Part shown: in pieces, positions 36,836 to 58,166 of the stretch
How positions within the stretch are numbered: the stretch's first letter is position 1
How the letters are laid out: every line of letters starts with the position of its first letter
NCBI GenBank assembly: GCA_024398435.1
Contig: JAKSJD010000003.1
Coordinates: forward strand, 186,001 to 250,000
Origin: Bacteroidaceae bacterium
Lineage (GTDB): Bacteria; Bacteroidota; Bacteroidia; Bacteroidales; Bacteroidaceae
Direction of reading: 5' to 3'
DNA length: 64,000 bases
Program-made: the position numbers and the translations under genes
The notes under the pieces: generated by a model
Seen by the model: only the letters and a program-made list of their open reading frames with translations
Database searches by the model: none
Told to the model about the DNA's origin: nothing

Positions 36836-36865
36836 TTGCTATCTCGCTAAAAATCAGTATCTTTG
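36836..36865 (+). promoter_or_regulatory. Promoter of polysaccharide module 1
   Basis: TTG at 36836-36838, a 19-base gap, then TATCTTTG at 36858-36865: a full Bacteroidetes promoter. The region around it (TTGCTAT...CGCT) is also similar to the module 2 promoter at 52027. Confidence 0.8.
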
Positions 36866-36949
36866 CAACCTCATATACATGTATGCGTATATGTGTACAT
36901 GCGCAGCCCTCATGTGACAGGCTGAGGCGAAGCTGTGGAATTAAATCCT
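36866..36949 (+). ncRNA. Structured leader RNA of module 1 (two-hairpin motif)
   Basis: The transcript from about 36871 begins with hairpin P1, CATATAC (36872-36878) with GTATATG (36887-36893). A 10-base linker and hairpin P2 follow, CAGCC (36904-36908) with GGCTG (36920-36924) around CTCATGTGACA, then a conserved tail GGCGAAGCTGTGG (36926-36938). The same architecture recurs at 52057-52130 with compensatory changes in both stems. The flippase ATG follows 11 bases after the tail. A protein-binding or antitermination leader is plausible. I do not recognise it as a known RNA family. Confidence 0.7.
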
Positions 36950-38482
36950 ATGAGTAACTACGAAAATAATAAACGAATAGCCAAGAACACTACAATGCTC
37001 TATATTAGAATGTTGTTGGTGATGATTGTGTCGTTGTATACATCAAGGGTTGTTCTGCAAGTATTGGGAAATGAAGACTATGGCACATATCAGGCAGTAG
37101 GAGGCATCGTAGGATTGCTCGTGTTTATTAATACAGCTTTAAGTCAAGGAACATCTCGTTTTCTCCTTTTTGAAATGGGCAAGCGTGATAGCAATAGGTT
37201 AGCAAAGTTGTTCTCAACAATGTTAAATGCGCATGTTATCATTGCACTAATAATTGTCCTTCTTGCAGAAACGATAGGATTATGGTTTGTGTATAATAAG
37301 CTTGTAATTGCTTCTGATAGGATGGATGCTGCGATAATCGTGTATCACTTGTCGGTTGTTACAGCTTTTGTGTCAATTACTCAAACGCCTTACAGTGCAG
37401 CAATAAAAAGTCATGAGAGATTTGATTTATATGCATACACAAGTATAATTGAAGTGGTCTTGAAATTGGTGATAGTTTACTTACTTACGATTTCTCCTAT
37501 AGATAAGTTAGCCTTTTATGCGTTGTTGCTGTGTCTATTGTCTGTAGGTGTTGCAATGTTCTATAGAGTGTATTGTATTCGTCATTTTAAAGAAACTCAA
37601 TACAATTTTATTTTTGATAAGGACATATTTAAGGAGGTGACATCATATTGTGGTTGGAATCTGTTTTCCAATATATCAGTTGCATTGAGCACGCAAGGTA
37701 TGATTGTTTTGATAAACATGTTTTTTAGTGGAACTATTGTAACATCGATTTCAATAGCAACAACAGTAAAAAACCAAGCAAAAGGTTTTGTTGACAATTT
37801 CCGTGTTGCAGCAATACCTCAAATAGTAAAGAAGTATGCAGGAGGCGAGACGGAATACAGTAAGCATCTATTGCTTGAAACATCTAAGTATAGTTATTTC
37901 CTGTTTATTTTATTTGGTTTGCCAATATATTTAGAATCTGAGAATATATTGTCATTGTGGTTAGGACAAATACCGGATTATTCTCCTATTTTCTTGAGAA
38001 TAATTGTGTTAACGGCTATAATGGAATTGTTTACAAGTTGTATGTTTACAACATTGGATGTTGTTGGCAAAATTCGTGAATACTCGATCATATACCCATT
38101 GATATTGTTTGCTACATTTCCTTTAACATATTTTTTCTATAAAATAGGAATGCCTCCGGTTACGGTTTCGTATGTTATGTTGGTAGCATATATGATATTA
38201 GCTTTTATTGTTATGCCTGTTTTGTCAGTAAGAATAGCAAAATATACCTTAAACGATATTATTCAATTATATGTGCCATGTCTGAAGGTTACTTTGTTGT
38301 CTGTGCCAATTCCAGCTTTGGCTTACATGTATTTGCCAATCGACAATGCTTTCCTTCATTTGTTAATCATTACGATTGTTTCAATACTATCAATAGGTGT
38401 GTGTATTTGGTATGTAGGATTGAATAATGATGTACGAACCTTGATTATGTCAAATGTAAAAAGTAAATTATTTCGTAGATGA
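36950..38482 (+). CDS. Polysaccharide flippase (Wzx-like)
   Basis: A 510-residue membrane protein of the polysaccharide flippase family, moving lipid-linked repeat units across the inner membrane. About 12-14 hydrophobic helices are visible. The N-terminus NNKRIAKNTTMLYIRMLLVM and TSRVVLQVLGNEDYGTYQAVGG is characteristic of Bacteroidales flippases. The start ATG at 36950 is preferred to an in-frame GTG at 36935, which lies inside the conserved leader tail. It is the first gene of module 1 and overlaps the SDR start by 4 bases. Confidence 0.92.
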   Translation: MSNYENNKRIAKNTTMLYIRMLLVMIVSLYTSRVVLQVLGNEDYGTYQAVGGIVGLLVFINTALSQGTSRFLLFEMGKRDSNRLAKLFSTMLNAHVIIALIIVLLAETIGLWFVYNKLVIASDRMDAAIIVYHLSVVTAFVSITQTPYSAAIKSHERFDLYAYTSIIEVVLKLVIVYLLTISPIDKLAFYALLLCLLSVGVAMFYRVYCIRHFKETQYNFIFDKDIFKEVTSYCGWNLFSNISVALSTQGMIVLINMFFSGTIVTSISIATTVKNQAKGFVDNFRVAAIPQIVKKYAGGETEYSKHLLLETSKYSYFLFILFGLPIYLESENILSLWLGQIPDYSPIFLRIIVLTAIMELFTSCMFTTLDVVGKIREYSIIYPLILFATFPLTYFFYKIGMPPVTVSYVMLVAYMILAFIVMPVLSVRIAKYTLNDIIQLYVPCLKVTLLSVPIPALAYMYLPIDNAFLHLLIITIVSILSIGVCIWYVGLNNDVRTLIMSNVKSKLFRR

Positions 38483-39318
38483 ACATATTTAAGAAAATCT
38501 ATAATGGAGCAGTAAATGCTGCAAAATCTGCTTTGTTCCAGAAGTTGATAAGAAGGGAACCCGTTGTTATCCGTGATGTGACAACGAATCTACTATCTGG
38601 TAAGTCTGCCATAGTAACAGGAGGTAATAGTGGCATTGGATATGCAATTGCAAAGAAGTTTATTGAAGCAGGTGCGGAACAGGTAACTATCATTGGACGA
38701 AATGCTGATAAAACCAAAAGTGTAGCAGAAGAACTTGGCTGCTCATATTTAGTTTTGGATGTTACTGATATTGATGCTATGGTTAATATAGTGTCAGCGT
38801 ATATTGCAAATCGTAAGGTTGATATTTTGGTAAATAGTGCTGGAGTACTTGATAAGGAACCATGGTTGGAGAAGACGTCAAAAGGTTTTGATGTCGTAAT
38901 GAATACAAATTTGAAGGCTGCTTATTTTATGAGCCAGACTATAGCCAAGCACATGGTAAGTAAGGGTATTCATGGTCATATACTGAATATCAGCTCGTCA
39001 TCAAGTAAAAGACCAGGGTGGGGACCTTATCAGTTGTCCAAGCATGCATTGAATGCGATGACAGAAGGTTTTGCCCATAATTTGGCTTGTCATGGAATAA
39101 CAGTTAACGGAATCGCTCCAGGCATTACTGCTACACCGATGCAAGATGGCAATTTAGAAGAAGGAAGTTTGACATATAATAATCCTATGCGCAGAGCGCA
39201 ATCTCCAGAGGAAATTGCAAATTTAGCTGTGTTTATGGTTAGTGATTTGGGCAATAGTATTATTGGAGACACTGTGATGATGACTGGTGGCAGTGGTAAT
39301 TTAAGTATTCATGGATAA
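38479..39318 (+). CDS. Short-chain dehydrogenase/reductase
   Basis: A 279-residue NAD(P)-dependent SDR. The cofactor motif TGGNSGIG follows an N-terminal extension of about 45 residues, the NNAG-type strand is LVNSAGVL, and the catalytic Ser and YQLSK (Tyr-x-x-x-Lys) are in place. Next to the TPP enzyme and the pyruvyltransferase, it may reduce a keto-sugar or a newly added keto side chain; the substrate is unknown. Confidence 0.88.
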   Translation: MNIFKKIYNGAVNAAKSALFQKLIRREPVVIRDVTTNLLSGKSAIVTGGNSGIGYAIAKKFIEAGAEQVTIIGRNADKTKSVAEELGCSYLVLDVTDIDAMVNIVSAYIANRKVDILVNSAGVLDKEPWLEKTSKGFDVVMNTNLKAAYFMSQTIAKHMVSKGIHGHILNISSSSSKRPGWGPYQLSKHALNAMTEGFAHNLACHGITVNGIAPGITATPMQDGNLEEGSLTYNNPMRRAQSPEEIANLAVFMVSDLGNSIIGDTVMMTGGSGNLSIHG

Positions 39319-39328
39319 GAGTTAAGAT

Positions 39329-41089
39329 ATGAAATATACAGATATTCGTAATACACAGATAGTGCTTTATCTTCTTAAAGCACATGGGATAAAAAAGGTG
39401 ATAGCATCGCCTGGTACTCAGAATATGAGCCTTGTTGTCAGTATGCAACATGATTCGTGGTTCGAAATGTATTCTGCACCCGATGAGCGCAGCGCGGCCT
39501 ATATGGCTTGTGGATTGGCTGCAGAAAGTGGCGAACCTGTAGTTTTGAGTTGTACAGGTGCAACAGCATCAAGAAATTACATTCCAGGCTTAACGGAAGC
39601 GTATTATAGAAAGTTGCCGGTTGTCGCAATCACTTCTACAGCGCGATTGGCTGCTGTTGGTCATAATGTACCTCAGATAATAGATCGTTCAGCCCATCAA
39701 AAAGATATAGTCAAAATCAGTGTGGTTGCTCGTGCAGTCTTTGATAAGATGGATGAGTGGGATTGTTCTGTTCAAGTGAATAAAGCTTTGTTGGAACTTA
39801 CACACAATGGAGGCGGTCCAGTTCATGTCAATCTCGAAAAGGTTGATGGTGATACCTTTTCCGTATCAGAACTTCCTAAATGCAGGGTGATAAATAGATA
39901 TTCTTTTAATGATGCGTTCCCCAAGATAGCAGGCAAACAAGTAGCTATATTTGTAGGGTCTCATATTGAATGGAGTAAATGTGACACACAAATACTTGAT
40001 GACTTTTGCTGCAAAACAGGAGCAATCGTATTTTGTGACCAAACTAGTAATTACCAAGGCAAGTATAGGGTACAGCATTCACTCGTAGCATCTCAAGAAC
40101 ATTACAATTCTTCAATTTTTGATGCTGATGTATTAATTAACATGGGCGAAGTATCTGGTGATTATTATCAGTTGATGAGATTAGGACAACATGCAAGAGA
40201 AGTATGGCGTGTTAGTGAGGATGGTGAATTGAAAGATACATTCAAAAAGTTGACGAAAGTTTTTGAAATGCCAGAAAGAGAGTTTTTTAAACGATATGTT
40301 GATGTGTCGTCTTCAATTGACTCAGTTGAATCAAGATTGAATATAGCAATCGATGAGTACGATAGAATCCACGGGAAGATTCCTGAATTACCATTCTGCA
40401 ATATTTGGATTGCAAGTAAGTTGCATTGTGAAATCCCAGATAATTCAGTGTTGCATTTTGGTATTTTGAATTCGTTGCGTGCTTGGAACTTTTTCAAGGT
40501 TGATCCAAGTGTGTTGGCATATAGTAATGTCGGTGGATTTGGAATAGATGGTGGAGTTTCAACAATGATTGGCTCATCTTTGGCCAATCCTCAGAAGTTG
40601 CATTTTGGTGTGTTTGGGGACTTGGCTTTCTTCTATGATATGAATTCCATCGGAAATCGTCATGTTGGCAATAATGTCCGCATTTTGCTGATTAATAATG
40701 CCAAAGGCTCTGAGTTCAAACTATATTCCCACCCTGCATCAAAATTAGGAGGAGAGGAAGATGAATATATAGCAGCCGCTAGACATTATGGAAACCAATC
40801 AAACAATCTTGTTAAGCACTATGCTTCTGATTTGGGCTTTTTATATCTCTCGGCTAATAATAAAGATGAGTTTTTGAATCAATATAAACAATTTGTATCA
40901 CCAGAAATAAGTGACCGACCAATACTGTTTGAAGTTTTTACTGATGCCCAAGATGAAAGTCGTGCTTTACAGCAAGTAAATAGTATCGAATATTCAACAG
41001 AATCAAAAGGCAAAAACTTAATCCATGATATAGTTGGCGATAAGGCTTATATAGCAATGTCAAATCTTAAATCTAAATTATCGAAGTAG
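39329..41089 (+). CDS. MenD-like thiamine diphosphate enzyme
   Basis: A 586-residue thiamine-diphosphate enzyme most like MenD in layout. The N-terminal Pyr domain has SPGTQNMSL and APDERSAAYMACGLA with the cofactor-activating Glu. The C-terminal PP domain has the GDL...NN motif (GDLAFFYDMNSIG to LLINNAKGSEF). In a polysaccharide operon it is unlikely to serve menaquinone; addition of a two-carbon or larger acyl unit to a keto-sugar, as YerE does for yersiniose, is a reasonable inference. The SDR upstream and pyruvyltransferase-family gene downstream are tightly spaced. Confidence 0.82.
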   Translation: MKYTDIRNTQIVLYLLKAHGIKKVIASPGTQNMSLVVSMQHDSWFEMYSAPDERSAAYMACGLAAESGEPVVLSCTGATASRNYIPGLTEAYYRKLPVVAITSTARLAAVGHNVPQIIDRSAHQKDIVKISVVARAVFDKMDEWDCSVQVNKALLELTHNGGGPVHVNLEKVDGDTFSVSELPKCRVINRYSFNDAFPKIAGKQVAIFVGSHIEWSKCDTQILDDFCCKTGAIVFCDQTSNYQGKYRVQHSLVASQEHYNSSIFDADVLINMGEVSGDYYQLMRLGQHAREVWRVSEDGELKDTFKKLTKVFEMPEREFFKRYVDVSSSIDSVESRLNIAIDEYDRIHGKIPELPFCNIWIASKLHCEIPDNSVLHFGILNSLRAWNFFKVDPSVLAYSNVGGFGIDGGVSTMIGSSLANPQKLHFGVFGDLAFFYDMNSIGNRHVGNNVRILLINNAKGSEFKLYSHPASKLGGEEDEYIAAARHYGNQSNNLVKHYASDLGFLYLSANNKDEFLNQYKQFVSPEISDRPILFEVFTDAQDESRALQQVNSIEYSTESKGKNLIHDIVGDKAYIAMSNLKSKLSK

Positions 41090-41091
41090 TC

Positions 41092-42189
41092 ATGAAAGTT
41101 GGAATTTTGACCTTTCACCGTGCCATTAATTATGGTGCTGTATTGCAAGCGTATGCAACGCAACAAGTATTAATTTCCATGGGACACGATGCCTATGTCA
41201 TAAATTATTTAATTCCATGTGTTGAAAATTCCGATAGAGCACCATTTTTGCCTAATGGAAAAATGAATCTTTTTATTCATGGTCATATTCGTTCGTGGTG
41301 GTTATATGATTCAAATAAATGCAATACTTTGAAAAAACGTAAGTTGTGGGATGATTTCTTGGCTTATAGGTTGCGTTTAACCGAATCATGCCTTCAAGAT
41401 TCGATACCTCAAGATTTTGATGCATACATAATTGGAAGTGATCAAGTTTGGAGTAGTTATATATGTAATGGACTTGATCCTGTTTACTGGGGAAATTTTA
41501 AACATCCGGAAGATAGTAGAGTGATAGCATATGCAGCGAGTACTTCTGTGACAGATATGAAAAAACAATCTCCGGATACATTATGTGGTTTGATGTCGAA
41601 TTTTAACTCAATTTCCGTTAGAGATGAAAAAGTGATGAGTTTTATAAATAAAGAATTGATTCTCAACTCAAATTATTCAATTCCTCATGCTTTTTTGACA
41701 ATCGACCCTACGATACTAGGAGGTAGGAATATTTGGGATACATTTACTAGCAAGCATTCACTGCCAGAAAAATATATTCTGTATTTTGCCGCACGAACAT
41801 ATAAGCCAAATCCTAATGCGATAAGAGAAAAAGCGATGCAGTTAGCTGATAAATTTGGATGCAGAGTCTTATCTATTAACTTTGGAGAGGATTCTCCAGA
41901 GGATTTTGTTGTAAAGATAAAGAATGCAGAAGCCGTCATTTCTTCATCGTTTCATGGTGTGGCTTTTTCGCTAATTTTCAATAAACCATTATTTGCAATT
42001 GCATATGGAGATGAACAGGATAGCCGATATGTAAATCTTCTCAATAATATTGGTGCTCAAAAAATGATTCATGGAATAGATGAAGATTTGGATCCCGATA
42101 TTGATTTTGATTATGATAAGATTAACATTAATATTGAGCGATTGAGAACTGCATCTTTGGACTATTTGACGAAATCCCTAAATTCATAA
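41092..42189 (+). CDS. Polysaccharide pyruvyl transferase family protein
   Basis: A 365-residue member of the polysaccharide pyruvyl transferase family (CsaB/EpsO type), which adds ketal-linked pyruvate from PEP to sugars. Family marks are KVGILTFHRAINYGAVLQAYA at the start, IIGSDQVWS in the first half, and SSFHGVAFSLIFNKPLFAI in the second. It begins 2 bases after the TPP enzyme stop. There is no signal peptide; it works in the cytoplasm at the membrane. Confidence 0.9.
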   Translation: MKVGILTFHRAINYGAVLQAYATQQVLISMGHDAYVINYLIPCVENSDRAPFLPNGKMNLFIHGHIRSWWLYDSNKCNTLKKRKLWDDFLAYRLRLTESCLQDSIPQDFDAYIIGSDQVWSSYICNGLDPVYWGNFKHPEDSRVIAYAASTSVTDMKKQSPDTLCGLMSNFNSISVRDEKVMSFINKELILNSNYSIPHAFLTIDPTILGGRNIWDTFTSKHSLPEKYILYFAARTYKPNPNAIREKAMQLADKFGCRVLSINFGEDSPEDFVVKIKNAEAVISSSFHGVAFSLIFNKPLFAIAYGDEQDSRYVNLLNNIGAQKMIHGIDEDLDPDIDFDYDKININIERLRTASLDYLTKSLNS

Positions 42190-42197
42190 GAGTAAAT

Positions 42198-43160
42198 ATG
42201 GATATTTTATTGTGTTTTAGTGACCGTTATACGATGCCAAGTGGTGTCACTATTTGCTCTATATGTGTAAATAATATTGAAGAGCTAATTAATTTTCATA
42301 TTATTTCAGATAGAGATTTTACCGATGAAAATAAAAATAAGTTGCGGACATTAGTTAGTGGCTATCCCAGTAAGTATATAAATTTCTATGAATTGAACGA
42401 CGAACTTATAAATACAACAATGAGATTCGAAAATCATTGGTGGCCAAAATATGTTTTTTATCGTTTGTTTATGGAGAAAATGCTTCCTAGTAATATCAGT
42501 AAAGTGTTGTATTTAGATAGCGATATTATCGTTAGGAATTCACTTTCAGCATTATGGAATGAAAACATATCTGATGTGGCAGTGGGTTGTGTCATTGATG
42601 CTTTGTCTGGTTCTATTGAACAATATAATAGGCTAGGATTTTCTTCTGATTATGAATATTTCAATGCGGGTGTACTATTAGTAAATCTAGAATACTGGCG
42701 AACTCATAATATTACAGATCGATTTGTTGATACATTAAAATACAAAGCCGATATTATCAAACAGCAAGATCAAGATGTCCTTAATTATGTTTTGCATGAT
42801 TCAAAACGATTACTGAAATTCACCTACAATTTCCAGTCAGGATTCATGTATAAGTTATCAATGTTAGGTTTGGACTATAATAAATATAAAAATGAAATAG
42901 ATGCAGCAGCTGACGATCCGATTGTGTTGCATTTGTCAGGAATGCGTCCGTGGATTTCTGGCAGAATGAAACACCCATACGAGTCGGAATTTTTTAAATA
43001 TAAAGCTTTATCTATATGGCGAGATGATTATTTGTGGCCATGCAATCTTACAATAAAAACTAGAATCATCAATTTCTTGCGTCCATTCTTGAGTAAGTTT
43101 GGAATTTGTCATATTATTCAAAATCCATTCGATAGTAAATATAAATTAAAACGAATTTGA
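42198..43160 (+). CDS. Glycosyltransferase family 8
   Basis: A 320-residue retaining glycosyltransferase of family GT8 (LPS glucosyl/galactosyltransferase type). The metal-binding DxD is in VLYLDSDIIV (residues 107-109). The later FNAGVLLVNLEYWR, QDQDVLNYVL and the HLSG motif (VLHLSGMRPW) all fit. It probably uses UDP-glucose or UDP-galactose. The sugar specificity cannot be read. Confidence 0.92.
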   Translation: MDILLCFSDRYTMPSGVTICSICVNNIEELINFHIISDRDFTDENKNKLRTLVSGYPSKYINFYELNDELINTTMRFENHWWPKYVFYRLFMEKMLPSNISKVLYLDSDIIVRNSLSALWNENISDVAVGCVIDALSGSIEQYNRLGFSSDYEYFNAGVLLVNLEYWRTHNITDRFVDTLKYKADIIKQQDQDVLNYVLHDSKRLLKFTYNFQSGFMYKLSMLGLDYNKYKNEIDAAADDPIVLHLSGMRPWISGRMKHPYESEFFKYKALSIWRDDYLWPCNLTIKTRIINFLRPFLSKFGICHIIQNPFDSKYKLKRI

Positions 43161-43166
43161 AAACTG

Positions 43167-43718
43167 ATGAAATTCTTGAATACAATTATTGATGGTGTAT
43201 ATATAATTGACCCAGATGTCCATGTTGATAGTCGAGGGCATTTTTATGAATCATTCAATCAAGCAGAGTTTGAATCTGCAATAGGAAATATTCATTTTGT
43301 TCAAGACAACGAAAGTTATTCACACCATGGGGTTATTCGTGGTTTGCATTATCAAAGGCCCCCGTATACACAAGCGAAGCTTGCTCGATGCGTTCGCGGT
43401 AAGATATTAGATGTTGCAGTGGATTTGAGAAGGAAATCAAAAACATATGGTACTTATGTTGCTGTTGAATTGTCAGAAGTCAACCATCGTCAGTTGTTTA
43501 TTCCTAAGGGATGTGCACATGGGTTCTCTGTATTATCCGAGTCTGCAATATTTCAGTATAAATGCGATGAGTATTATCACCCAGAGGCAGAGATCGGCTT
43601 TGCATGGGATGACAAACAAGTCAATGTTAACTGGCAAGTTGATATGTGTGATGTTGTTTTGGCAGATAAGGATAAGTCTAGAATGCTATTTCGAGAGTTA
43701 CCGCTTGATTTCGTTTAG
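43167..43718 (+). CDS. rfbC: dTDP-4-dehydrorhamnose 3,5-epimerase family
   Basis: A 183-residue cupin-fold epimerase. The catalytic His61 lies in VIRGLHYQ and the Asp in VDLRRKSKTYG; FIPKGCAHGFSVLSE and the Tyr region YKCDEYYHPEAE follow. It makes the 3,5-epimerised keto-sugar on the way to dTDP-L-rhamnose or a relative. The rest of the pathway (rfbA, rfbB, rfbD) is not in the window, so it depends on genes elsewhere or acts on another keto-sugar. Confidence 0.92.
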   Translation: MKFLNTIIDGVYIIDPDVHVDSRGHFYESFNQAEFESAIGNIHFVQDNESYSHHGVIRGLHYQRPPYTQAKLARCVRGKILDVAVDLRRKSKTYGTYVAVELSEVNHRQLFIPKGCAHGFSVLSESAIFQYKCDEYYHPEAEIGFAWDDKQVNVNWQVDMCDVVLADKDKSRMLFRELPLDFV

Positions 43719-43757
43719 GTTTTGAAATACGATTTTTCGTGTTACTAATTTAGAAAT

Positions 43758-45179
43758 ATGATATTTAACTCATTTCAATTTGTGTGGTTATTTCCAGTAA
43801 TATTTGTTATTTACTGGATGTTAACGGGGAGAAATACTAAATCGAATAGTTTTTCTCAATTGAGCAATGCTTTTTTGATAGTTGTTTCGTATGCACTTTA
43901 TATTCAGTGGAAGCCTGTATATGCCCTAGTGTTATTGGGTGTTACTGCTGTTACATATATAGGTGCAAGAATAATTGAAGTGAAGAATGCTTATGGAAAG
44001 CAAAAGTACTTGCTGTCAATTGCATTGTGCTTAGCTGCTCTGCCACTCTTAGCGTTCAAGTACTATGATTTCGTAAGTGGGCAACTGAATGTGTTGTTAG
44101 ATACTTTAAGCGTAGAATGGAGCCTTCCAGGTTTAAACCTCGCTTTACCTCTTGGAATTTCTTTCTTCACTCTTCAGGCAATAAGTTATTTGTATGATGT
44201 CTATAAACAGAAAATACCAGCTGAGCACAATTGGTGGCATTATATGCTGTTTGTCAGTTTCTTCCCTCAGATAGCATCAGGACCGATAAGTAAGGCCAGT
44301 GAATTGTTGCCTCAAATTAAATCACAGCGCCATTTTGACTATTCTCAAGCAGTTCAAGGGCTTAAATGGCTTCTATGGGGAATGTTCTTGAAGGTTGTAG
44401 TTGCCGATTCTATAGGTTTGCAAGTTGATGTCATTTATCAGTCATATAGTTCTCATAGCGGATTGGCGTTGTTGATAACAAGCATTTATTATATTATTCA
44501 GATATATTGTGATTTTGCAGGGTATTCATATATGGCATTGGGAGTAGGGCAAACGATGGGTTTTGAATTGATAAACAACTTTCAACGTCCATATTTCTCC
44601 GTTAGTGTAACCGAATTCTGGAGAAGATGGCATATATCTTTGTCTCGGTGGTTGAAAGATTATATTTTTATACCACTTGGTGGTAGTAGATGTGGAAAAT
44701 TAAGAAACTATTTAAACATTATCATTACATTTGTGATTAGTGGCATTTGGCATGGTGCTAACTGGACATTTATTATATGGGGATTGATTCATGGAGCGGT
44801 TCAAGTTTTTGAAAAAATGTTTGATTGTAGAACTTATGAAGGCCATAATCATCTAGTGCGTATTCTACGAATAGTTACTACATTTATGGTTTTCGACCTA
44901 TCTATGATATTCTTCAGAATGCCATCACTTGATGATGCAATTAATGTCTATGGTAAATTATTTACAGACTTTACTTTCGAGCCATTTGTTTGGACGTACT
45001 GCTCAATGCTTGTACTAATTGTGTTCTTTAAGGATTTGATGGATGAGCTGGATATAAAGCAATTAAGACTATTGCATAGCAAATATACAATAGTTAGATG
45101 GATTACGTATGTTGTCTTGATATCGTTTATCGCTATTTCAGGTGTATATGGTGGTCAGTTTATTTATTCTGGATTTTAG
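43758..45179 (+). CDS. MBOAT family O-acyltransferase (AlgI-like)
   Basis: A 473-residue membrane-bound O-acyltransferase with about 10-11 membrane helices. The motif segments are SFFPQIASGPI, FWRRWHISLSRWLKDYIFIPLGG and the catalytic His in ISGIWHGANWTFIIWG. It would pass acyl groups across the membrane for O-acetylation of the glycan, together with the exported partner encoded next. Confidence 0.93.
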   Translation: MIFNSFQFVWLFPVIFVIYWMLTGRNTKSNSFSQLSNAFLIVVSYALYIQWKPVYALVLLGVTAVTYIGARIIEVKNAYGKQKYLLSIALCLAALPLLAFKYYDFVSGQLNVLLDTLSVEWSLPGLNLALPLGISFFTLQAISYLYDVYKQKIPAEHNWWHYMLFVSFFPQIASGPISKASELLPQIKSQRHFDYSQAVQGLKWLLWGMFLKVVVADSIGLQVDVIYQSYSSHSGLALLITSIYYIIQIYCDFAGYSYMALGVGQTMGFELINNFQRPYFSVSVTEFWRRWHISLSRWLKDYIFIPLGGSRCGKLRNYLNIIITFVISGIWHGANWTFIIWGLIHGAVQVFEKMFDCRTYEGHNHLVRILRIVTTFMVFDLSMIFFRMPSLDDAINVYGKLFTDFTFEPFVWTYCSMLVLIVFFKDLMDELDIKQLRLLHSKYTIVRWITYVVLISFIAISGVYGGQFIYSGF

Positions 45180-45194
45180 GATTTAGTCATATAT

Positions 45195-46104
45195 ATGAGA
45201 AAGTTTCTTGTTAAACTATTTGTTTTAGCGTTAGTATTTGTATGTGTTGATGTTGCGTATGGATTTCTGTGTTGCTATTTGCAAGATAACGCAAAAAGGA
45301 GGTCAAACTCGTATGGATAATTTGATATGCGATTCAATAGATGCAGATATATTGATTTTCGGTTCTTCAAGGGCCCATCAACAATATTATCCAAAAATCT
45401 TTATGGATAGTTTGAATATGTCATGTTATAATTGTGGGTCGAGTGGAATGGGTATATTGTATCATTATGGTAGATGGCGAATGATTTCTAAAAGACATAT
45501 ACCCAGAGTGGTTGTATATGATGTACTACCTGTATTGGATATGATGGTGCGTGATGATAATGTGATTTTTATTAATCCATTGCGAAGATATTATGGTAAG
45601 GATTCATTGGTTGATAGACTTTTTTATGAGGTGGACTCAAATGAACGACTGAAAATGCTGAGTAATACATATAGATACCATTCGAGTATAATGGGACTTG
45701 TTTCGGATTATCGAAATGCAACTGTTTATGAGGATGGCTTCGAAGTGGTTACAGCTAAAATGCCGAAAGATGATGCTCTTGCGGTTACTGAAAAAGTAGA
45801 TTATGAAGTGGATAGCCTTAAATTACAATATTTAGAGCAATTTATTCTAGAAACGAAAGACAAAATAAAATTGATTTTTGTAGCGTCTCCACGATGGGGA
45901 TATCAAACAAGCGGTAAAGCGTTTGAACCATTACTGGAATTGTGTGCAAAATATAATATTCCATTTATTGATCACTATTGCGATAGCACATTCAATACAA
46001 ATCCAGAATTGTTCTCAAATGAATCACATATGAATGTGTATGGGGCCGATGTATGGAGTAAGGAAATTGCATCAGAAATAAAGAAATTATTAATATTTAA
46101 TTAA
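45195..46104 (+). CDS. SGNH-like partner of the MBOAT protein, frameshifted at its signal sequence
   Basis: The main frame (45238 or ATG 45313 to 46104) encodes a hydrolase-like domain: ADILIFGSSRAHQQYYP (GSS as nucleophile block), then FIDHYCDSTFNTN and a C-terminal NESHMNVYGADVWS with the expected His. The usual N-terminal membrane anchor is present but in another frame. ATG 45195 opens MRKFLVKLFVLALVFVCVDV and runs to a stop after 41 codons. Removing one A from the run AAAAA at 45293-45297 joins the two into a normal-looking protein. Downstream of the A-run a strong AAGGAGGT lies 8 bases before ATG 45313. Sequencing error, slippage switching and true damage are all possible. Confidence 0.7.
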
Positions 46105-46105
46105 T

Positions 46106-47272
46106 ATGTACGACAACAAACAGGTGATTGGTTATGTTACACCAGCCAATCCATTTACTGATAGAAAGCATTGGAGTGGTTTGACATATAAAATAAGGGA
46201 AGGCATAGAACGTGCTGGATACAAAGTAGTATGGATACCATACCCTACAGTTGGATTCCTAATTAGATGCTGGAATTTGATTATAAAGCTATACTCGAAA
46301 ATGCGATTCCCTGGACAAAGATATTTATTAGGCGAAAATTTTGTACCAACAGCGAAAATCTTGGCTAGGTCAATTAAGAAATGTCCATCTATTAATGAGT
46401 GTGATTGTTTGTTCTTCCCAGGTGGTGGGCAATTAGGATTATATCTTCAGACAAACATACCCATTATATACTATTCTGGCGCTACTGTCAAATCAATGAT
46501 AGGGTACTATTGGCATGATATATGTAAAAGGTCTCAAAAGATTGCTGTTGACATAGATAAGAGAGCATCACTAAGTGCAACTATTAATATAAAGGCTTCG
46601 GATTGGGCCATTAATAGTATTAATAACGATTATGGATGTCCAGCAAATAGATCTTTTGTGTTGGAATATGGTCCAGCTATTGATACCAAAGATATAACTA
46701 TTAAAGATGCGTATAAGGGGGGAAAGTTGAAAGTGCTGTTCTCTGGTGTGGATTGGGAACGAAAAAATGGTGACATTGCTGTTGCTGTTGTTTCCAAACT
46801 TCGTGATAAGGGTATTGATGCATCGTTGGTGGTAGCGGGAATAAGGCAGTTACCTGAGTATTGTAGTCGTTTAGAATATGTTGAAAGTGTCGGCTTTTTG
46901 AATAAGAATACACCAGATGGTTATAACAAATATATTTCTTTATTCAAAGAGTGCGATATATTATTTGTACCAACAAAGGCGGAGTGCGCAGGAGTTGTTT
47001 TCTGCGAAGCTTCTGCATTTGGGCTACCATCTTATACATTTGCTACAGGAGGTACACCTAATTATGTGGTGGATGGCAAAAATGGTAGGACAATTCAAAT
47101 TAGTGACTCTGCAGGTGATACTTTTGCACAGTTGATATATGACGACATAAAATCGGGAAAACTTTCAGAAATGCGAGATGGTGCTCTTGCTCATAGTAGA
47201 GAAAAACTTTCGTGGGAAGCATGGAGTGAAAGATTTAAGAAAATTATGAAGTCGTGTTTTGCTGAAGATTAA
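46106..47272 (+). CDS. Glycosyltransferase family 4-like
   Basis: A 388-residue GT-B glycosyltransferase. The C-terminal nucleotide-sugar domain has KVLFSGVDWERKNGDIAVAVV, ILFVPTKAECAGVVFCEASAFGLPSYTF with the EX7E-type glutamates, and TGGTPNYVVDGKNG. The N-terminal domain is more diverged. It starts 1 base after the SGNH gene stop. Confidence 0.88.
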   Translation: MYDNKQVIGYVTPANPFTDRKHWSGLTYKIREGIERAGYKVVWIPYPTVGFLIRCWNLIIKLYSKMRFPGQRYLLGENFVPTAKILARSIKKCPSINECDCLFFPGGGQLGLYLQTNIPIIYYSGATVKSMIGYYWHDICKRSQKIAVDIDKRASLSATINIKASDWAINSINNDYGCPANRSFVLEYGPAIDTKDITIKDAYKGGKLKVLFSGVDWERKNGDIAVAVVSKLRDKGIDASLVVAGIRQLPEYCSRLEYVESVGFLNKNTPDGYNKYISLFKECDILFVPTKAECAGVVFCEASAFGLPSYTFATGGTPNYVVDGKNGRTIQISDSAGDTFAQLIYDDIKSGKLSEMRDGALAHSREKLSWEAWSERFKKIMKSCFAED

Positions 47273-47273
47273 A

Positions 47274-48293
47274 ATGACAAATTGTAGAAATTCAAATATT
47301 GAAATACTCCGTATTGTCTTAATGGTGTTTATAGTGATCCACCATATAATAATGAAAGTTATTGGTGTTAATCATATAAATCATATGTGGGGGTGTATTG
47401 ACATTTTGATGCATACGTCGGTATTGACATTTGTGTTCATATCAGGATATTTTGGCATTAATTTTAAGTTTTCGAGGCTTTTAAATATTGTAGGAATAGT
47501 TATATTCTACTCGCTTATATTATCATGTGTGTCAGTATTTGTTTTTAATGAAGGAGATGCATTGTTTATAATTAAATCGTTTCTTCCTTTCACTAATGGA
47601 TATTATTGGTTTATTGCAGTATATTTGGAATTGTATTTACTCAGTCCAATATTGAATTATATTCGTGATAATATAAGTGATAAAATGTATTTGTATGTAA
47701 TAATTATTTTGTCATTTATTATATATTATTTAGGGTGGATTCGACATGATTTGATATGTATTGATGGCAAAAATATATTGAATTTTTGTCAAATATATTT
47801 GGTCGCAGGAGCTTTTAAGAGATTTGGTCAATATAATTGGGTGAAGCATGCATGCTCGTTGAGGTTCAACATGGCGGTATTGTTAGTCGCTGCAATTATG
47901 TTGTTGGCAATGTATTTCCTAAAACATGAGTCTTTTATTGTCTTCGTATTATTTATCAACAAATATAATTCACCTATCTTACTATGTATATCAATTGCAA
48001 TATTTAATTTATTTAATAAGACTTATTTTAATTCAAAATATGTGAATTATTTAGCCTCTTCAAGCTTGGCAATTTATTTAATGCATGAACACCCTTTGAT
48101 TCAAAAGTATATTTATATATCTTTTTTCCAAGGAATTAAAGATGATTATTCGTCTTTGATATTGCTGGTGATAGTAATTATATACGCATTGGTGCTGGCA
48201 ATTTCATGTATTTTTATTGATAAAATTAGAGTGTTGTTCTTTTCGCCTATTGAAAATCGGATAATTAAATTATTTGAACATAAAATGCAATAA
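47274..48293 (+). CDS. Acyltransferase family 3 (OafA-like) membrane protein
   Basis: A 339-residue membrane protein of the acyltransferase 3 family. The opening IEILRIVLMVFIVIHHIIMK carries the conserved His pair in the first helix; about ten helices follow and LYLLSPILNYI is typical. It likely O-acetylates a sugar of the repeat unit or an outer residue. The start ATG 47274 follows the previous stop directly; TTG 47259 is inside that gene. The sequence is very AT-rich even for this module. Confidence 0.87.
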   Translation: MTNCRNSNIEILRIVLMVFIVIHHIIMKVIGVNHINHMWGCIDILMHTSVLTFVFISGYFGINFKFSRLLNIVGIVIFYSLILSCVSVFVFNEGDALFIIKSFLPFTNGYYWFIAVYLELYLLSPILNYIRDNISDKMYLYVIIILSFIIYYLGWIRHDLICIDGKNILNFCQIYLVAGAFKRFGQYNWVKHACSLRFNMAVLLVAAIMLLAMYFLKHESFIVFVLFINKYNSPILLCISIAIFNLFNKTYFNSKYVNYLASSSLAIYLMHEHPLIQKYIYISFFQGIKDDYSSLILLVIVIIYALVLAISCIFIDKIRVLFFSPIENRIIKLFEHKMQ

Positions 48294-48303
48294 TTCGTAT
48301 AAT

Positions 48304-49245
48304 ATGAAATATTCCGTAACAATTCCAGCATATAAGTCAAAGTTTTTAAAAGAATGCATAGATAGTATTTTGGCACAGACATTCGAAGACTTTGAGATAG
48401 TAATCGTAAATGATGCATCTCCCGAAGATTTGGACTCTATAGTCAATCAATACACAGATCCGAGAATTCGTTATTACGTGAATGAAAAGAATTGTGGAGC
48501 AATTGATGTTGTTGACAATTGGAATAAATGTCTTCAATATGCACAAGGTGATTATATAATTTGTATGGGAGATGATGATATGCTTGCTCCTAATTGCTTA
48601 GAAGAGTATAATACATTAATGGAAAAGTATCCAAACTTGGATGTGTATCATACTCGTACTATGATGGTTGACGAGAACTCGCAATTTTGTGATTTACAGG
48701 AAGAGCGTCCGGAGTACGAATCTGTGTATTCTATGATTTGGCATAGATTTATGAAAGCCCGAATACAGTTTATCGGTGATTATTTATTTAAGACATCTGC
48801 ATTGAGAGACGCCGGGGGCTTTTATAAATTACCATTAGCATGGGAATCTGATTGTGTTACATCCTATATTGCAGCTAATAATAAAGGTATTGCAAATACT
48901 TCAACCCCCATCTTTTATTATCGACAGAATAGATCGTCTATTACTAATAGCCAAAATGTCCGTATAAAAATGGATGCGACATTGCAATTCGAGCAATGGT
49001 TGCATAATTTTCTCGAATATCAACCTAAGGATAATTTCGATAATAAGTATTGGACATTAATAAAACGAGATGTAGGTGGGCGTATAAAGCATAATAAAAT
49101 ATATATGATAGGTGATGATATAAAATGTTCCCATCTTTCTTCAATAATTTATTGGCTTAACAATAGGAAAAGGCTTGGACTATCTGTTCCAGAACTTTTG
49201 TTTTCCGTTGGTATAGGCGTGACATTGATGTTTAAAAGAAATTGA
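48304..49245 (+). CDS. Glycosyltransferase family 2
   Basis: A 313-residue GT-A inverting transferase. Start MKYSVTIPAYKSKFLKECIDSILAQ is typical; the nucleotide site is EIVIVNDASPED, the metal-binding acid cluster CMGDDDML, and PLAWESDCV is a typical later acid region. It is the last gene of module 1, 29 bases before a strong terminator. Confidence 0.92.
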   Translation: MKYSVTIPAYKSKFLKECIDSILAQTFEDFEIVIVNDASPEDLDSIVNQYTDPRIRYYVNEKNCGAIDVVDNWNKCLQYAQGDYIICMGDDDMLAPNCLEEYNTLMEKYPNLDVYHTRTMMVDENSQFCDLQEERPEYESVYSMIWHRFMKARIQFIGDYLFKTSALRDAGGFYKLPLAWESDCVTSYIAANNKGIANTSTPIFYYRQNRSSITNSQNVRIKMDATLQFEQWLHNFLEYQPKDNFDNKYWTLIKRDVGGRIKHNKIYMIGDDIKCSHLSSIIYWLNNRKRLGLSVPELLFSVGIGVTLMFKRN

Positions 49246-49273: not shown

Positions 49274-49307
49274 AATCGGAGGCTCTCTATGAGGGCCTCC
49301 GATTTTT
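49274..49307 (+). terminator. Strong terminator of module 1
   Basis: AATCGGAGGC (49274-49283) pairs perfectly with GCCTCCGATT (49295-49304), followed by TTTTTG. It ends the operon that began at 36871. Confidence 0.9.
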
Positions 49308-52026: not shown

Positions 52027-52056
52027 TTGCTATTCCGCTGATTTTCCGTATCTTTG
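52027..52056 (+). promoter_or_regulatory. Promoter of polysaccharide module 2
   Basis: TTG at 52027-52029, a 19-base gap and TATCTTTG at 52049-52056. Layout and flanking bases match the module 1 promoter. Confidence 0.8.
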
Positions 52057-52130
52057 CAAACTCATACACATATGCGTGTATGTGTATACGTGTACGACCC
52101 TCAATGTGACAGGTCGGGGCGAAGCTGTGG
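52057..52130 (+). ncRNA. Structured leader RNA of module 2 (two-hairpin motif)
   Basis: P1 is CATACAC (52063-52069) with GTGTATG (52076-52082); P2 is CGACC (52095-52099) with GGTCG (52112-52116) around CTCAATGTGACA; the tail GGCGAAGCTGTGG is at 52118-52130. Against the module 1 copy, P1 changes a U-A pair to C-G, and P2 changes A-U to G-C and G-C to A-U, so pairing is kept while sequence changes. The P2 loop and the tail are nearly unchanged. Here about 137 bases of repeat words separate it from the first gene. Confidence 0.7.
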
Positions 52131-52135
52131 GGAAG

Positions 52136-52267: not shown

Positions 52268-52657
52268 ATGATTCAGAGTTTTGAGGATTTATTCATATTT
52301 CAATCGGCTAGGGAGTTGTGTATTAAGATATACAAAATAACAGAAAACGAATCATTTGCATCTGATTATCGTTTTGTTCAGCAAATTCATGCTGCAGCTG
52401 GTTCTATAATGGATAATATCGCAGAGGGTTTTGAACGTTCCGGCAACAAAGAGTTCTTAAACTTTTTATATATAGCTAAAGCTTCGTGTGGTGAAGTTCG
52501 CAGTCAAATTATTCGTGCTCATGATGTCGGTCATATTACTACAGATGAATTTGAGAATCTATACAATGACACAAAAAAGTTGTCTGCATCAATAATGAAT
52601 TTTACCAAAGAACTAAAGAGCAAAGGATACAAAGGATTTAAGTATAGTGAGCAATAA
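52268..52657 (+). CDS. Four-helix-bundle protein 1 (23S rRNA IVS type)
   Basis: A 129-residue four-helix-bundle protein of the family first seen in intervening sequences of 23S rRNA genes and related to the Avd protein of diversity-generating retroelements. The hallmark IMDNIAEGFERSGNKEFLNFLYIAKASCGEVRSQI is split over residues 48-80. It is the most distant of four such proteins in this module and the first gene behind the leader RNA. Function is unknown; no retroelement or rRNA gene is present. Confidence 0.87.
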   Translation: MIQSFEDLFIFQSARELCIKIYKITENESFASDYRFVQQIHAAAGSIMDNIAEGFERSGNKEFLNFLYIAKASCGEVRSQIIRAHDVGHITTDEFENLYNDTKKLSASIMNFTKELKSKGYKGFKYSEQ

Positions 52658-52763
52658 GAGTTCAAAAGTGCAAGAGTACTCACTCTTATGACTTTTATGA
52701 CATTTATGACTCTTATAACATTTATCACTTTTTTTACTTTTATCACATTTATAACTTTCAATT

Positions 52764-53990
52764 ATGAAAATAATAGAGATTACACCAATCACTCCGGCAT
52801 CACAGAATATCAGGGGAACATCTGCTATTCAGTATCATTTGTTGGTGCATAGACCAAAGGATGTGGAGGTGGAGATATATTCGTTCAATAATAACCATCT
52901 TTCTGATGATAAGATTAAGGAAGTTGAGCAGGAACTGAGTTCAAAGATTCATATTATCTCCCAACCTAAATGGATTGATGTGGTACTGAAGTTGCATTTA
53001 CTGTTCGTGAGAGTGTTCTTGAAGTATCCAATATTCAATTACATAAAACTGTCTCAAAATATTGTTGATGAGATAATGGGCAAGCAACCTGATGGCATAT
53101 GGATTTATGGGCAGGATACATCGAGAATAACGCGTCAATTCCCAAATGTTCCAAGAGTACATACTTTGCCTGATAGTGAGGCTCTGTATTATTATCGTAT
53201 GTTAGGTCAGCGGTTCGTGTTTATTGATTGGAAATCATATCTTCGCAATGCAATTATGTATCCAAAATATACACGCATGGAACATAACTATCCTGTAGGC
53301 AAGGATATCCATTATCATCTTGTAGGTGATGCAGATGTCCGGTTTTTAAGAAACAACAATACAGCAATAGATGCTCATTTTCTGCGCCATCCTCATTATG
53401 ATATATCAGAACCTAAGAAGCAGATAAAGTTTTCGCAACCTAAAATCAAATTGCTTATAGCTGGTCAGTACAACCTGTACATGAAGCAAAGTGCGGATGA
53501 GTTGGTGGATGCTATGTGTGGTGATGTTGCAAAACAACTATCCAATCATTATGCCATAACGATTTTAGGCAAGGGATGGGAGAATATAGTTTCTCGTCTT
53601 CAAAATGAAGGATATGAAGTTAATCATATTCGGTTTGCAGATGATTACATCGAAGAGATTAAGAAGCATGATATACAATTGACACCAATAGCAATTGGAA
53701 CAGGTACGAAAGGTAAGGTGCTTGATGCCCTGGCAAATGGTTTGTTGGTTATCGGAACATACTATGCTTTGGAGAATATAGCAGTAGAATCGGGCGAGTC
53801 ATGTATTGAATACCACAGTGCAGAAGATGCAATCAATGCATTGCTTGATATCCCAGCGAATATATCTAAATATGAACAAATGGCTGAACTAGGTCGCCAG
53901 GCAGTGTTAACAGAGCACAATCGGGCTAAAGCATCTGATGCTCTTTTGTACTTTTTTGAAAATAAACCTTATTATAATGGAGAATTGTGA
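52764..53990 (+). CDS. Glycosyltransferase-like protein (GT-B fold)
   Basis: A 408-residue GT-B-like protein. The C-terminal half has KLLIAGQYNLYMKQSADELV, ITILGKGWENIVSRL and the donor-site TKGKVLDALANGLLVIGTYYALENI. The N-terminus starts EITPITPASQNIRGTSAIQYHLL, as in many Bacteroidales exopolysaccharide transferases. The last codons coincide with a 42-base sequence also found at 49693, and the stop lies within an AATTGTGAATTGA word, so the 3' end appears to be rebuilt from spacer repeats. Confidence 0.82.
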   Translation: MKIIEITPITPASQNIRGTSAIQYHLLVHRPKDVEVEIYSFNNNHLSDDKIKEVEQELSSKIHIISQPKWIDVVLKLHLLFVRVFLKYPIFNYIKLSQNIVDEIMGKQPDGIWIYGQDTSRITRQFPNVPRVHTLPDSEALYYYRMLGQRFVFIDWKSYLRNAIMYPKYTRMEHNYPVGKDIHYHLVGDADVRFLRNNNTAIDAHFLRHPHYDISEPKKQIKFSQPKIKLLIAGQYNLYMKQSADELVDAMCGDVAKQLSNHYAITILGKGWENIVSRLQNEGYEVNHIRFADDYIEEIKKHDIQLTPIAIGTGTKGKVLDALANGLLVIGTYYALENIAVESGESCIEYHSAEDAINALLDIPANISKYEQMAELGRQAVLTEHNRAKASDALLYFFENKPYYNGEL

Positions 53991-54209
53991 ATTGAAAATG
54001 GAGAAGTTATCTAATTGACAATGTATAATGGATACTGTAGAATGAAATTGGTTAACAGTTCACGGTTCACAGTTCACAGTTAATGGTTTGATACTCTAAT
54101 CTTTAAACTCTACACTTTACACTCTTATCACTCTTATAACTTTTGCACTTTTATAACTCTTATAACTTTTGCACTTTTATAACTTTTCAAACTCTTATCA
54201 CTTTATTTT
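53991..54209. repeat. Mixed word tract before the polymerase gene
   Basis: It contains AATGTAT, GTTCACG/GTTCACA words and then a long run of 9-base words TTATAACTT/TTATCACTC/TTGCACTT up to the next ATG. The segment 54001-54060 is an inverted near-copy of 36636-36697. Confidence 0.8.
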
Positions 54210-55346
54210 ATGTGGATATATATATTAATTTTTGCTATTGTTGCATATTTGACATATAACGATTATCAAGGTCATCCATTGACTAAGCAAGGTTTGGCCA
54301 TAGTTATGACTTGTCTTGCTTTATTTGTGGGGTTGAGTGACATGCTTGGAGGGTATGACCGATATATATATGGAGAGTTGTTTGATGATGTCGCAGACAT
54401 GGTCAGGGCTGGAGACTATAACTTTGAACAATCTGCGGTCATGCAGTTGTATGGACTGGAAAAAGGATATGTGTATTTCAATGTACTTATATCGTTCATA
54501 ACGAGAAATAGATATATATTTATTTTGATAATGACCCTGATGATTTATTTCAATATTTATCATGCAATTAAGAATTACACGGACAATTATTCGTTTGCCA
54601 TCATAATTTTCCTTGGCTTTTGGTTCTTCTTTACATTCACATATCTTCGTCAGGCCATGGCAGCCACAATAGCATGGTATGGCATAAAATATATTCTTGA
54701 CAGAAAGTTGTGGAAATTCTTAGCAGTTATGGCAGTTGCATATATGTTCCACAATTCCGCTATAGTTTTTGTTCCTTTCTATTTTATCCCAATAATTAAA
54801 TTCAATAGAAATACATTGATATGGATATTGGTTTCTATTTTTATTCTTGGTGCTTCTGGTTTCCCATCTTTGTTGTTTGAGGCATATGCTTCTGTAACGG
54901 CAGAGCAAGCTCGTCTAACCGAGTCTATGGAGGACACTGGTGTTCGTTGGGCATATTTAATAGAATCTGCAGTTATTATGTATTTTATATTTGCAAATTA
55001 TGATAAGTTGTTTGAAGATGAGCGCCAAACTTTGATGACCAACATGGCAATTGTATTTGCTGCTTTGCTAGTTTTGTTCTACCGCTCTGAAAATGGAGGT
55101 AGATTGAGTTGGGTATTTATTATAGGTTTAATTTCTACACTTTCAACTATTGCATCACAAAAGAAAGCAATGAGAAATATGTTGATTATATTATGCTTTG
55201 GTTTGTATATTCGAATAGTAATGGCGTGGGGAGTGTTGTTATCACCGTACAAGACATTCTTGACTCCAGGTATTCGTAATAATGATTATATTGAAGAATA
55301 TTATGAATATGATCACAATTATGATGTGGATAAATTCTATAGATAA
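54210..55346 (+). CDS. EpsG-like polysaccharide polymerase (Wzy)
   Basis: A 378-residue membrane protein with about ten hydrophobic helices. It has the EpsG family pattern: an early GGYDRYIYGELFDD loop, the FFTFTYLRQAMAATIAWYGIKYIL helix pair with the conserved Arg-Gln, and MFHNSAIVFVPFYF. It would polymerise flipped repeat units at the periplasmic face. Module 1 lacks such a gene, so it may serve both modules. Confidence 0.87.
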   Translation: MWIYILIFAIVAYLTYNDYQGHPLTKQGLAIVMTCLALFVGLSDMLGGYDRYIYGELFDDVADMVRAGDYNFEQSAVMQLYGLEKGYVYFNVLISFITRNRYIFILIMTLMIYFNIYHAIKNYTDNYSFAIIIFLGFWFFFTFTYLRQAMAATIAWYGIKYILDRKLWKFLAVMAVAYMFHNSAIVFVPFYFIPIIKFNRNTLIWILVSIFILGASGFPSLLFEAYASVTAEQARLTESMEDTGVRWAYLIESAVIMYFIFANYDKLFEDERQTLMTNMAIVFAALLVLFYRSENGGRLSWVFIIGLISTLSTIASQKKAMRNMLIILCFGLYIRIVMAWGVLLSPYKTFLTPGIRNNDYIEEYYEYDHNYDVDKFYR

Positions 55347-55387
55347 AAATGCACGCATTTTTATCGGTTAACAGTTAAGATGTCGAC

Positions 55388-55406
55388 TCAGAGGCGGAAC
55401 CTCTGA
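55388..55406. other. Perfect hairpin between polymerase and GT2 genes
   Basis: TCAGAGG (55388-55394) pairs with CCTCTGA (55400-55406) around CGGAA, in a 120-base spacer otherwise made of TTATCACTC words. There is no T-run, so it is not a standard terminator. Confidence 0.4.
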
Positions 55407-55466
55407 ACACGCAACTAAAACGGCTAAATCAACTTTTGCACTCTTATCACTCTTATCACTTTTTAA

Positions 55467-56267: not shown

Positions 56268-56331
56268 ATACCTGGTTAACGGTTCACAGTTAACGGTTCA
56301 CGGTTATCAGTTGTTGGTAAAATATTAAATT

Positions 56332-56742
56332 ATGATGAAAAAGTCGATACTAGCAACAGAAGAAGAAAAGGGCAAAATGCAAATTCAAGATTTGTCCTAT
56401 GATTTTGCTAATCGTATAATTCGGATTTATGAATATTTAACTAAAGAAAGCGAATACAAAGAAAAAGTTTTATCATTACAATTACTGAGAAGTGGAACTA
56501 GTATAGGTGCAAATGTAAATGAGGCGCAGCATGCTCAGAGTGATAAAGATTTTTTGTCTAAATTATCTATAGCTTTAAAGGAAGCACGCGAAACGGAATA
56601 TTGGTTGAGACTCTTAAGAGACAATGGGTATATTGATTCGACTCAAGCCGAATCTTTGCTATATGATTGTGTACGTATTAATAAAATATTGATAGTGATT
56701 GTGAGAAAAATTTCAGATAAGCTCCAATCAAATAACAAATAA
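56332..56742 (+). CDS. Four-helix-bundle protein 2
   Basis: A 136-residue four-helix-bundle protein with the core LLRSGTSIGANVNEAQHAQSD followed by FLSKLSIALKEARETEYWLRLL. It is clearly related to proteins 3 and 4 at 57747 and 61170. It is flanked by GTTAACG/GTTCACA words on both sides and lies between two GT2 genes. Function is unknown. Confidence 0.87.
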   Translation: MMKKSILATEEEKGKMQIQDLSYDFANRIIRIYEYLTKESEYKEKVLSLQLLRSGTSIGANVNEAQHAQSDKDFLSKLSIALKEARETEYWLRLLRDNGYIDSTQAESLLYDCVRINKILIVIVRKISDKLQSNNK

Positions 56743-56752
56743 ACTGTTAACT

Positions 56753-58130: not shown

Positions 58131-58166
58131 TTCTCCATTTTCCATTATCAATTATACATTAAATAA

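Follow-up and report, generated by a model that had tools for sequence, protein, structure and literature searches.

What reads the leader at the head of a long polysaccharide operon, and does it read RNA or DNA? The question is raised by two gene modules in a 64-kb stretch of Bacteroidaceae DNA (here called the window), each preceded by the same short leader. A preliminary description had taken this leader for a two-hairpin RNA of no described family and had suggested that a NusG-like antiterminator acts through it on the whole operon.

Two leaders in the window

The features of the two modules are as follows, all on the plus strand.

36858..36865, plus strand: -7 box TATCTTTG of module 1, Bacteroidetes type, with the same box in the second leader
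36872..36893, plus strand: P1 (CATATAC..GTATATG), alternating purine-pyrimidine, probably no conserved part
36904..36908, plus strand: 5' arm of P2 in the first leader, CAGCC, covarying with 36920-36924 over nine distinct stems
36914..36919, plus strand: loop end GTGACA of the first leader, conserved
36920..36924, plus strand: 3' arm of P2 in the first leader, GGCTG, covarying
36926..36938, plus strand: ops-like tail GGCGAAGCTGTGG of the first leader, core GCGAAGC at 36927-36933
36950..49245, plus strand: module 1 operon, first gene flippase-like (no Pfam match, named by similarity)
49274..49304, plus strand: intrinsic terminator after module 1, 14-bp stem and T run
52049..52056, plus strand: -7 box TATCTTTG of module 2
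52095..52099, plus strand: 5' arm of P2 in the second leader, CGACC, covarying
52112..52116, plus strand: 3' arm of P2 in the second leader, GGTCG, covarying
52118..52130, plus strand: ops-like tail GGCGAAGCTGTGG of the second leader, placed by alignment with the first
52268..63557, plus strand: module 2 genes (glycosyltransferases, EpsG, bacterial sugar transferase, four 23S_rRNA_IVP-family genes)

Promoters of the Bacteroidetes type have a -7 consensus, on which the box calls are based. The leader lies between a promoter, recognized by this consensus only, and the first gene of a long polysaccharide operon. The window's genome (77.6% complete, 32 contigs) contains two full copies, W1 and W2, both inside the window and 15,191 bases apart. 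They align through promoter, leader and tail (36835-36938 with 52026-52130; 84 of 107 positions identical, 79%, E 5e-18), which bears out the early observation that the leader recurs, promoter included, before module 2 some 15 kb away. The remaining 17 matches of the whole-genome leader search were short pieces, the best of them promoter-like. W1 extends from its -7 box to the end of the tail at 36938, and the ATG of the flippase-like gene follows 11 bases on; W2 extends from 52049 to 52130, with 137 bases between leader and first gene. The loop end GTGACA and the tail GGCGAAGCTGTGG are letter for letter the same in W1 and W2, in keeping with the remark that loops and tail hardly change. P2 differs by exactly the compensating changes first reported, an A-U pair becoming G-C and a G-C pair becoming A-U (CAGCC/GGCTG and CGACC/GGTCG).

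In module 1, the flippase-like gene, for which two Pfam searches gave no match, shares 37% identity (E 4e-112) with the gene that comes first after the element in another genome (G394). Behind it come SDR, TPP-enzyme, pyruvyl transferase, GT8, RmlC-like and MBOAT genes, followed by unknown, GT4, acyltransferase and GT2 genes.

The surroundings of the two leaders hold further features. At 35984-36005 on the minus strand, 21 of 22 bases are identical to the W1 promoter, upstream of a large minus-strand gene (32617-35838). Between the modules, a 103-base inverted repeat (76%; 49544-49646 and 51565-51667) surrounds a VapE-like gene (50365-51558), and gene and repeat are possibly an inserted element. 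Degenerate short repeats of the AAAGTGCGAAAAGTTCTAA type occupy the stretch from W2 to the first gene of module 2 (52125-52273), and repeats complementary to this type lie downstream of module 1 (49652-49903). The four 23S_rRNA_IVP-family (S23 four-helix) genes stand among the glycosyltransferases of module 2, at 52268-52657, 56332-56742, 57747-58130 and 61170-61538.

P1, one of the two hairpins originally proposed, has the letters claimed for it (CATATAC/GTATATG in W1, CATACAC/GTGTATG in W2). It is alternating pyrimidine-purine DNA, able to pair in several registers, and its fold barely beats shuffles (z -0.58, with 56 of 200 as good, and z -0.92, with 32 of 200). P1 was seen in W1 and W2 only, with no counterpart by eye in the flanks of other copies, and we rejected it as a conserved hairpin. 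Judged by sequence comparison, the conserved hairpins of the leader number one, not two: the claim of two covarying hairpins stood for P2, which other genera keep by compensation, and failed for P1, which is not supported as a functional hairpin.

Copies in other genomes and the P2 stem

The survey covered draft genomes, one per species. A pattern for the 3' half, with at most two mismatches, matched 9 of 399 genomes of the family (the reversed control gave one match), and in four of the nine, namely the window's genome, G008, G214 and G109, a promoter-like leader and the stem were present. A structure-free model of the 29-base 3' half (R1) gave 61 matches in 54 of the 399 genomes at E up to 0.1; flanks were read for 30 loci and 17 were kept. 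Since R1 was built free of structure, the 5' arm of P2 played no part in finding these copies. From the 17 copies a second structure-free model (R2) was made. Across the order it gave 10 matches in 8 of 393 genomes, none of which was accepted outside the family; six such matches look like chance, mostly in coding DNA. In Phocaeicola, the genus of G214, R2 gave 21 matches in 18 of 61 genomes (17 accepted, 4 not), and in 40 chosen genomes 14 matches in 12 (9 accepted, 5 not). Acceptance was by eye, from the stem and an operon or leader context. The accepted copies are non-coding apart from those of G076 and G093, which sit inside a UpxY gene.

Altogether 26 copies were accepted, from 21 genomes and five genera, so that the search for copies elsewhere did find the element before glycan genes of other genera. 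Four variant copies (G250, G292, G791 and G149) were counted apart; that of G149 (L212, G149:C17:44721-44737) has the stem and GCGAAGCGTG and stands before a gene that by eye resembles an AAA/OLD-type ATPase. Matches dropped as chance after reading the flanks were L022, L025 and L028-L030 (pattern search); L051, L054-L056, L059-L061 and L063-L068 (R1); L095-L100 and L116-L119 (R2 in the order and in Phocaeicola); L234 and L236-L239 (R2 in the 40 chosen genomes); and L207-L210, from a search whose other 8 of 12 matches were kept.

Named genomes, when scanned, yielded 24 stretches. Sixteen, from Bacteroides, Phocaeicola or Bacteroidales (P. plebeius, P. massiliensis and P. faecalis among them), were copies already in the survey, and of the eight from other groups seven were judged chance. 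The last, L084 in Bizionia myxarmorum (7331-7350), reads GTGACAGGTAGCGGCGAAGC and has a WecA-like gene downstream; the DNA it lies in is AT-rich and seemingly non-coding. No matching 5' arm was seen in this member of another order, and the stretch is chance or a distant relative. The exact 21-base pattern had no match in genome-contig or viral-contig collections, in which close relatives of the window's genome are possibly absent. Counting the variants, 27 of 30 copies have a TA-N(1-2)-TTT(T)G box no more than 140 bases upstream, a raw count uncalibrated against chance.

Twenty-three of the 26 copies go with polysaccharide or upxY genes (one with a HAD-like gene first), and the G008 copy follows a Wza-like gene at the edge of its contig. 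Most target genes were named by eye from N-termini. The other two copies, in another genus, precede type VI secretion genes (L242, G049:C57; L241, G022:C46). Pfam identified the genes of G049 as ClpB-type ATPase, TssC, TssD, baseplate-injector domain and gp25; the first genes behind the element in G022 are the same by eye.

Do the copies keep the P2 stem? Over nine distinct stems, 44 of 45 cells are paired (97.8%), and further compensatory changes of the kind anticipated for copies elsewhere are thus present. Cells changed on both sides number 12, against 3.9 in shuffles (0 of 500 reach 12), and the covariation score is 0.844 against 0.359 (0 of 500 reach it), in a test where kinship alone can beat shuffles without structure and where three arms were positioned by pairing. 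Two of the five measures do not stand out over 500 shuffles: pairs with two-sided change (4 of 5 against 2.4; reached by 51 of 500) and further pair types (8 against 6.9; reached by 159 of 500). Single-copy strength ranges from p 0.03 to 0.86 across 24 copies, with a combined p of 0.006 for seven copies outside Phocaeicola. One 5-bp stem is weak in any single copy, and the case for P2 therefore rests on comparison. The loop is 11 to 49 bases long in the 24 copies, with varying letters; in Phocaeicola the 5' arm TTACC is constant, though the intervening loop is not, either in length or in letters. Folded by itself, W2 forms P2 in its lowest-energy structure, and W1 forms a longer hairpin that takes in the tail; the whole-leader folds have z -1.90 (W1) and z -0.67 (W2). 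Because the 3' half recurs in other genera and the stem is kept by compensatory changes, P2 and the tail together are beyond chance.

The tail core, ops and UpxY

In the aligned copies, the most conserved part of the leader is not the hairpin; it is the tail core, GCGAAGC. The core stands two bases after the 3' arm of P2, the second of these bases being mostly G, and A or C in some copies. GCGAAGC is present in all 17 copies of the alignment and in 25 of the 26 accepted copies; the odd one (G394) reads GCGGAGC, still a GNA loop. G.GACAG at the loop end is invariant in the 17 copies, and a later copy, in G022, reads GTGACGG.

The oligonucleotide d(GCGAAGC) is described as a very stable DNA mini-hairpin that melts at 78 C, one of a class in which two or more G-C pairs close a GNA or GNNA loop (PMC4686876). 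The ops element, GC-GGTA-GC, would be a GNNA case of this class. RfaH is reported to recognize ops in the form of a hairpin of the non-template DNA strand, in which C3 pairs with G8, G4-A7 form the loop and T6 is flipped out (PMC5995543). In the leader of E. coli K-12 rfbB we find CTGG..CCAG-G-GGCGGTAGCGTG, with core GC-GGTA-GC and the spacing of W1 and W2 (by eye, with our own stem assignment). JUMPstart/ops (Rfam RF01707), among which a conserved stem-loop was noted by Weinberg 2010 (PMC2864571), and the Bacteroidaceae element are thus alike in position, near the start of a polysaccharide operon, and in build, with a short stem, one base and then GGC-loop-GC; in several Phocaeicola copies the tail continues GCGTG as in ops. 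They differ in the loop, which is GAA in W1 and W2 and GGTA in ops, and in the T6 that RfaH is said to read in ops (PMC5995543) and that the Bacteroidaceae element lacks. The stem sequences are unrelated, and the proposed partner is UpxY instead of RfaH. By analogy with ops, we consider it more likely that GCGAAGC is read on the non-template DNA strand; the nascent RNA hairpin, predicted P2, would then stand just upstream of this candidate DNA site.

Standard DNA folding gave no stable structure for the W1 and W2 tails (MFE 0), with a program that may lack the special GNA-loop bonus. One Phocaeicola tail folded at -2.0 (z -0.62) and ops at -0.9 (z -2.12). The pause consensus G-10 Y-1 G+1 fits W1, W2 and ops, and 8 of the 18 tails tried overall.

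The leader had been called unlike any described family, and this held: Rfam families had no match in the 64-kb window, and in seven element loci, at E up to 10, two weak matches only, neither at an element. At its gathering score the RF01707 covariance model put 0 of 22 element genomes over the cut-off (another 16 matches fell below it, none of them at an element) and 1 of 14 control genomes, presumably E. coli.

Is there a protein in the window's genome that could read the site? Its canonical nusG (168.4 bits against a cut-off of 135.7) lies beside secE-like and rplK-like genes. The only other NusG-domain gene is on another contig (G000:C1:298537-298824, minus strand), directly behind an argD-like gene, and encodes 167 aa. 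This paralog is an UpxY by model NF033644 (112.1 bits against a cut-off of 100) and fails the RfaH and LoaP models (LoaP, 28.7 bits against a cut-off of 125); no solved structure matches it by sequence at E 0.001. There is no UpxY gene in the window's locus, where the first gene of module 1 is flippase-like, and UpxY would therefore act in trans. This orphan UpxY, the only one in an incomplete genome, is the presumed partner of the window's leader. G005, G009 and G010 have a near orthologue, yet no accepted motif.

Across Phocaeicola, the motif goes with close relatives of UpxY. All 14 motif-bearing genomes have one above 160 bits, against 19 of the 47 others (p 3.8e-5); above 130 bits, 23 of the 47 motif-less genomes do (p 3.6e-4). 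Excluding G076 and G093, in which the motif lies in the UpxY gene and one of which gave the query, leaves 12 of 12 (p 1.5e-4), and counting the four variant carriers as motif-bearing gives 18 of 18 against 15 of 43 (p 1.3e-6); all four p values are uncorrected for kinship. In a tree, UpxY-like rows stand apart from NusG (100/100), and a subclade (92/88) has 9 of 13 rows from motif genomes, against 0 of 8 in its sister (p 0.005, for a subclade chosen post hoc).

Motif and upxY are also linked physically. In five genomes (G201, G239, G362, G394 and G162), a motif-led run of flippase, glycosyltransferase, Wzz-like, porin-like and lipoprotein genes has upxY as its last member, with a convergent gene beyond it (the Wzz of G201 was identified by Pfam, the other genes by eye from N-termini). 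In a sixth locus, in G029, the contig ends right after the UpxY gene of the motif-led run. In G141 and G180 upxY is the first gene, with the motif further in; in G076 and G093 the motif lies within the first codons of upxY, with arm TTATC in G076 and TTACC in G093. Close upxY leaders of the variant carriers G250, G292 and G791 read TTACC..GGTAAC-A-GCGTAGCGTGC, or nearly so, a GCGTAGC version. Six of the 14 motif-bearing Phocaeicola genomes have their close UpxY elsewhere in the genome, and no motif lies within 10 to 20 kb around it in G214, G109, G330, G308 or G809 (G386 left out). A rule that upxY leaders generally carry GCGNAGC was rejected: 4 of 38 loci had it, against about 3 expected from farther flanks, in a test where one of the four is probably coding, 10 of 48 loci had no gene call and a few calls were plainly misplaced.

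Hence, we think the leader is a recruitment site for an UpxY-family antiterminator acting in trans, like E. coli JUMPstart/ops, with a probability of roughly 0.78. NusG-like control of the whole operon through the leader, as proposed at the outset, is supported by linkage, co-occurrence and architecture. RNA polymerase would start some 50 to 60 bases upstream, make the short P2 hairpin and then halt or slow at the tail. There GC-GAA-GC, exposed as single-stranded non-template DNA, would fold into a mini-hairpin with a GAA loop, for UpxY to read. The protein would then stay on the polymerase and carry it through the 12-kb polysaccharide operon. As a lone gene elsewhere in the genome, one UpxY would serve modules 1 and 2 alike, in trans.

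Perhaps UpxY or another protein instead binds P2 in the nascent RNA, in the manner of LoaP, with the tail as a second RNA contact? A small leader RNA hairpin is bound by LoaP (PMC12691694), and P2 is kept by compensatory change. However, the P2 loop varies in length and sequence, the strongest conservation lies in the tail, outside the stem, and the window's UpxY does not reach the LoaP cut-off. We regard this reading as improbable. Still less likely is a cis-acting RNA of polysaccharide operons with another purpose, such as an attenuator, translation control or a ligand-sensing RNA. Such an RNA would suit the covarying stem and the mere 11 bases to the first ATG in module 1, but the distance to the first gene varies (11 and 137 bases), there is no terminator-like site in the W1 or W2 leader and no Rfam match, and the element is also found ahead of type VI secretion genes and within an UpxY gene. 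Type VI secretion and polysaccharide targets together fit long-transcript processivity control better than sugar sensing. Least probable of all is that an ordinary regulator of initiation binds the element as DNA, the site having been duplicated along with promoter and module. Promoter and leader do recur together and the P1 region is palindromic, but in other genera stem and tail persist despite different flanks and promoter spacing, and a site read as duplex would have no need of the compensatory stem changes.

Known systems and meaning of the element

A recruitment site for UpxY invites comparison with the capsule leaders of Bacteroides. UpxY there reportedly recognizes the paused polymerase through exposed non-template and upstream duplex DNA, with a nascent RNA hairpin helping (Saba et al. 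2024, Nat Commun 15:10862). The likeness lies in a polysaccharide operon leader and the presence of an UpxY-family protein. The layout differs: there the operon opens with upxY, often accompanied by upxZ, and here upxY is an orphan in the window's genome, closes the operon in five Phocaeicola loci or carries the element within itself. The element also occurs before type VI secretion genes. In a paper citing that work, UpxY is said to contact the upstream DNA duplex (PMC12691694). The LoaP system, with its dfn/mln leader hairpin, is alike in that a leader hairpin lets a NusG paralog act on a long operon; it differs in protein family and in its UNCG RNA hairpin, and RfaH-type DNA reading was not found for LoaP according to the account in PMC12691694.

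We found no description of the Bacteroidaceae element in the open-access literature; a large set of candidate RNAs from human microbiomes has been published (PMC8040213). The mechanism class has reportedly been described already (Saba et al. 2024), and we therefore regard the element as a new sequence variant with a new layout. New here would be its own sequence, the orphan, terminal or self-contained upxY and the type VI targets.

A 2020 paper called it unknown how specialised NusG paralogs apart from RfaH locate their operons (PMC7593976). A sequence-defined candidate landing site with matching UpxY proteins makes the question testable outside B. fragilis and B. thetaiotaomicron. More tentatively, and as less likely than not, we envisage a trans-acting, RfaH-like UpxY regulon across several Bacteroidaceae genera, with the non-template DNA mini-hairpin GC[GNA]GC as its recruitment code, reached in parallel to GC[GNNA]GC of ops, with surface polysaccharide and type VI operons as targets and with the terminal upxY as a self-sustaining switch. 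If this is true, terminal upxY would be made only once polymerase has been carried to the operon end, and GC[GNA]GC and ops would both be drawn from a class of extraordinarily stable DNA mini-hairpins. The element suggests that ops and the GCGAAGC leader rest on a common principle, the DNA mini-hairpin, and sugar coats and type VI secretion may share one kind of elongation factor.
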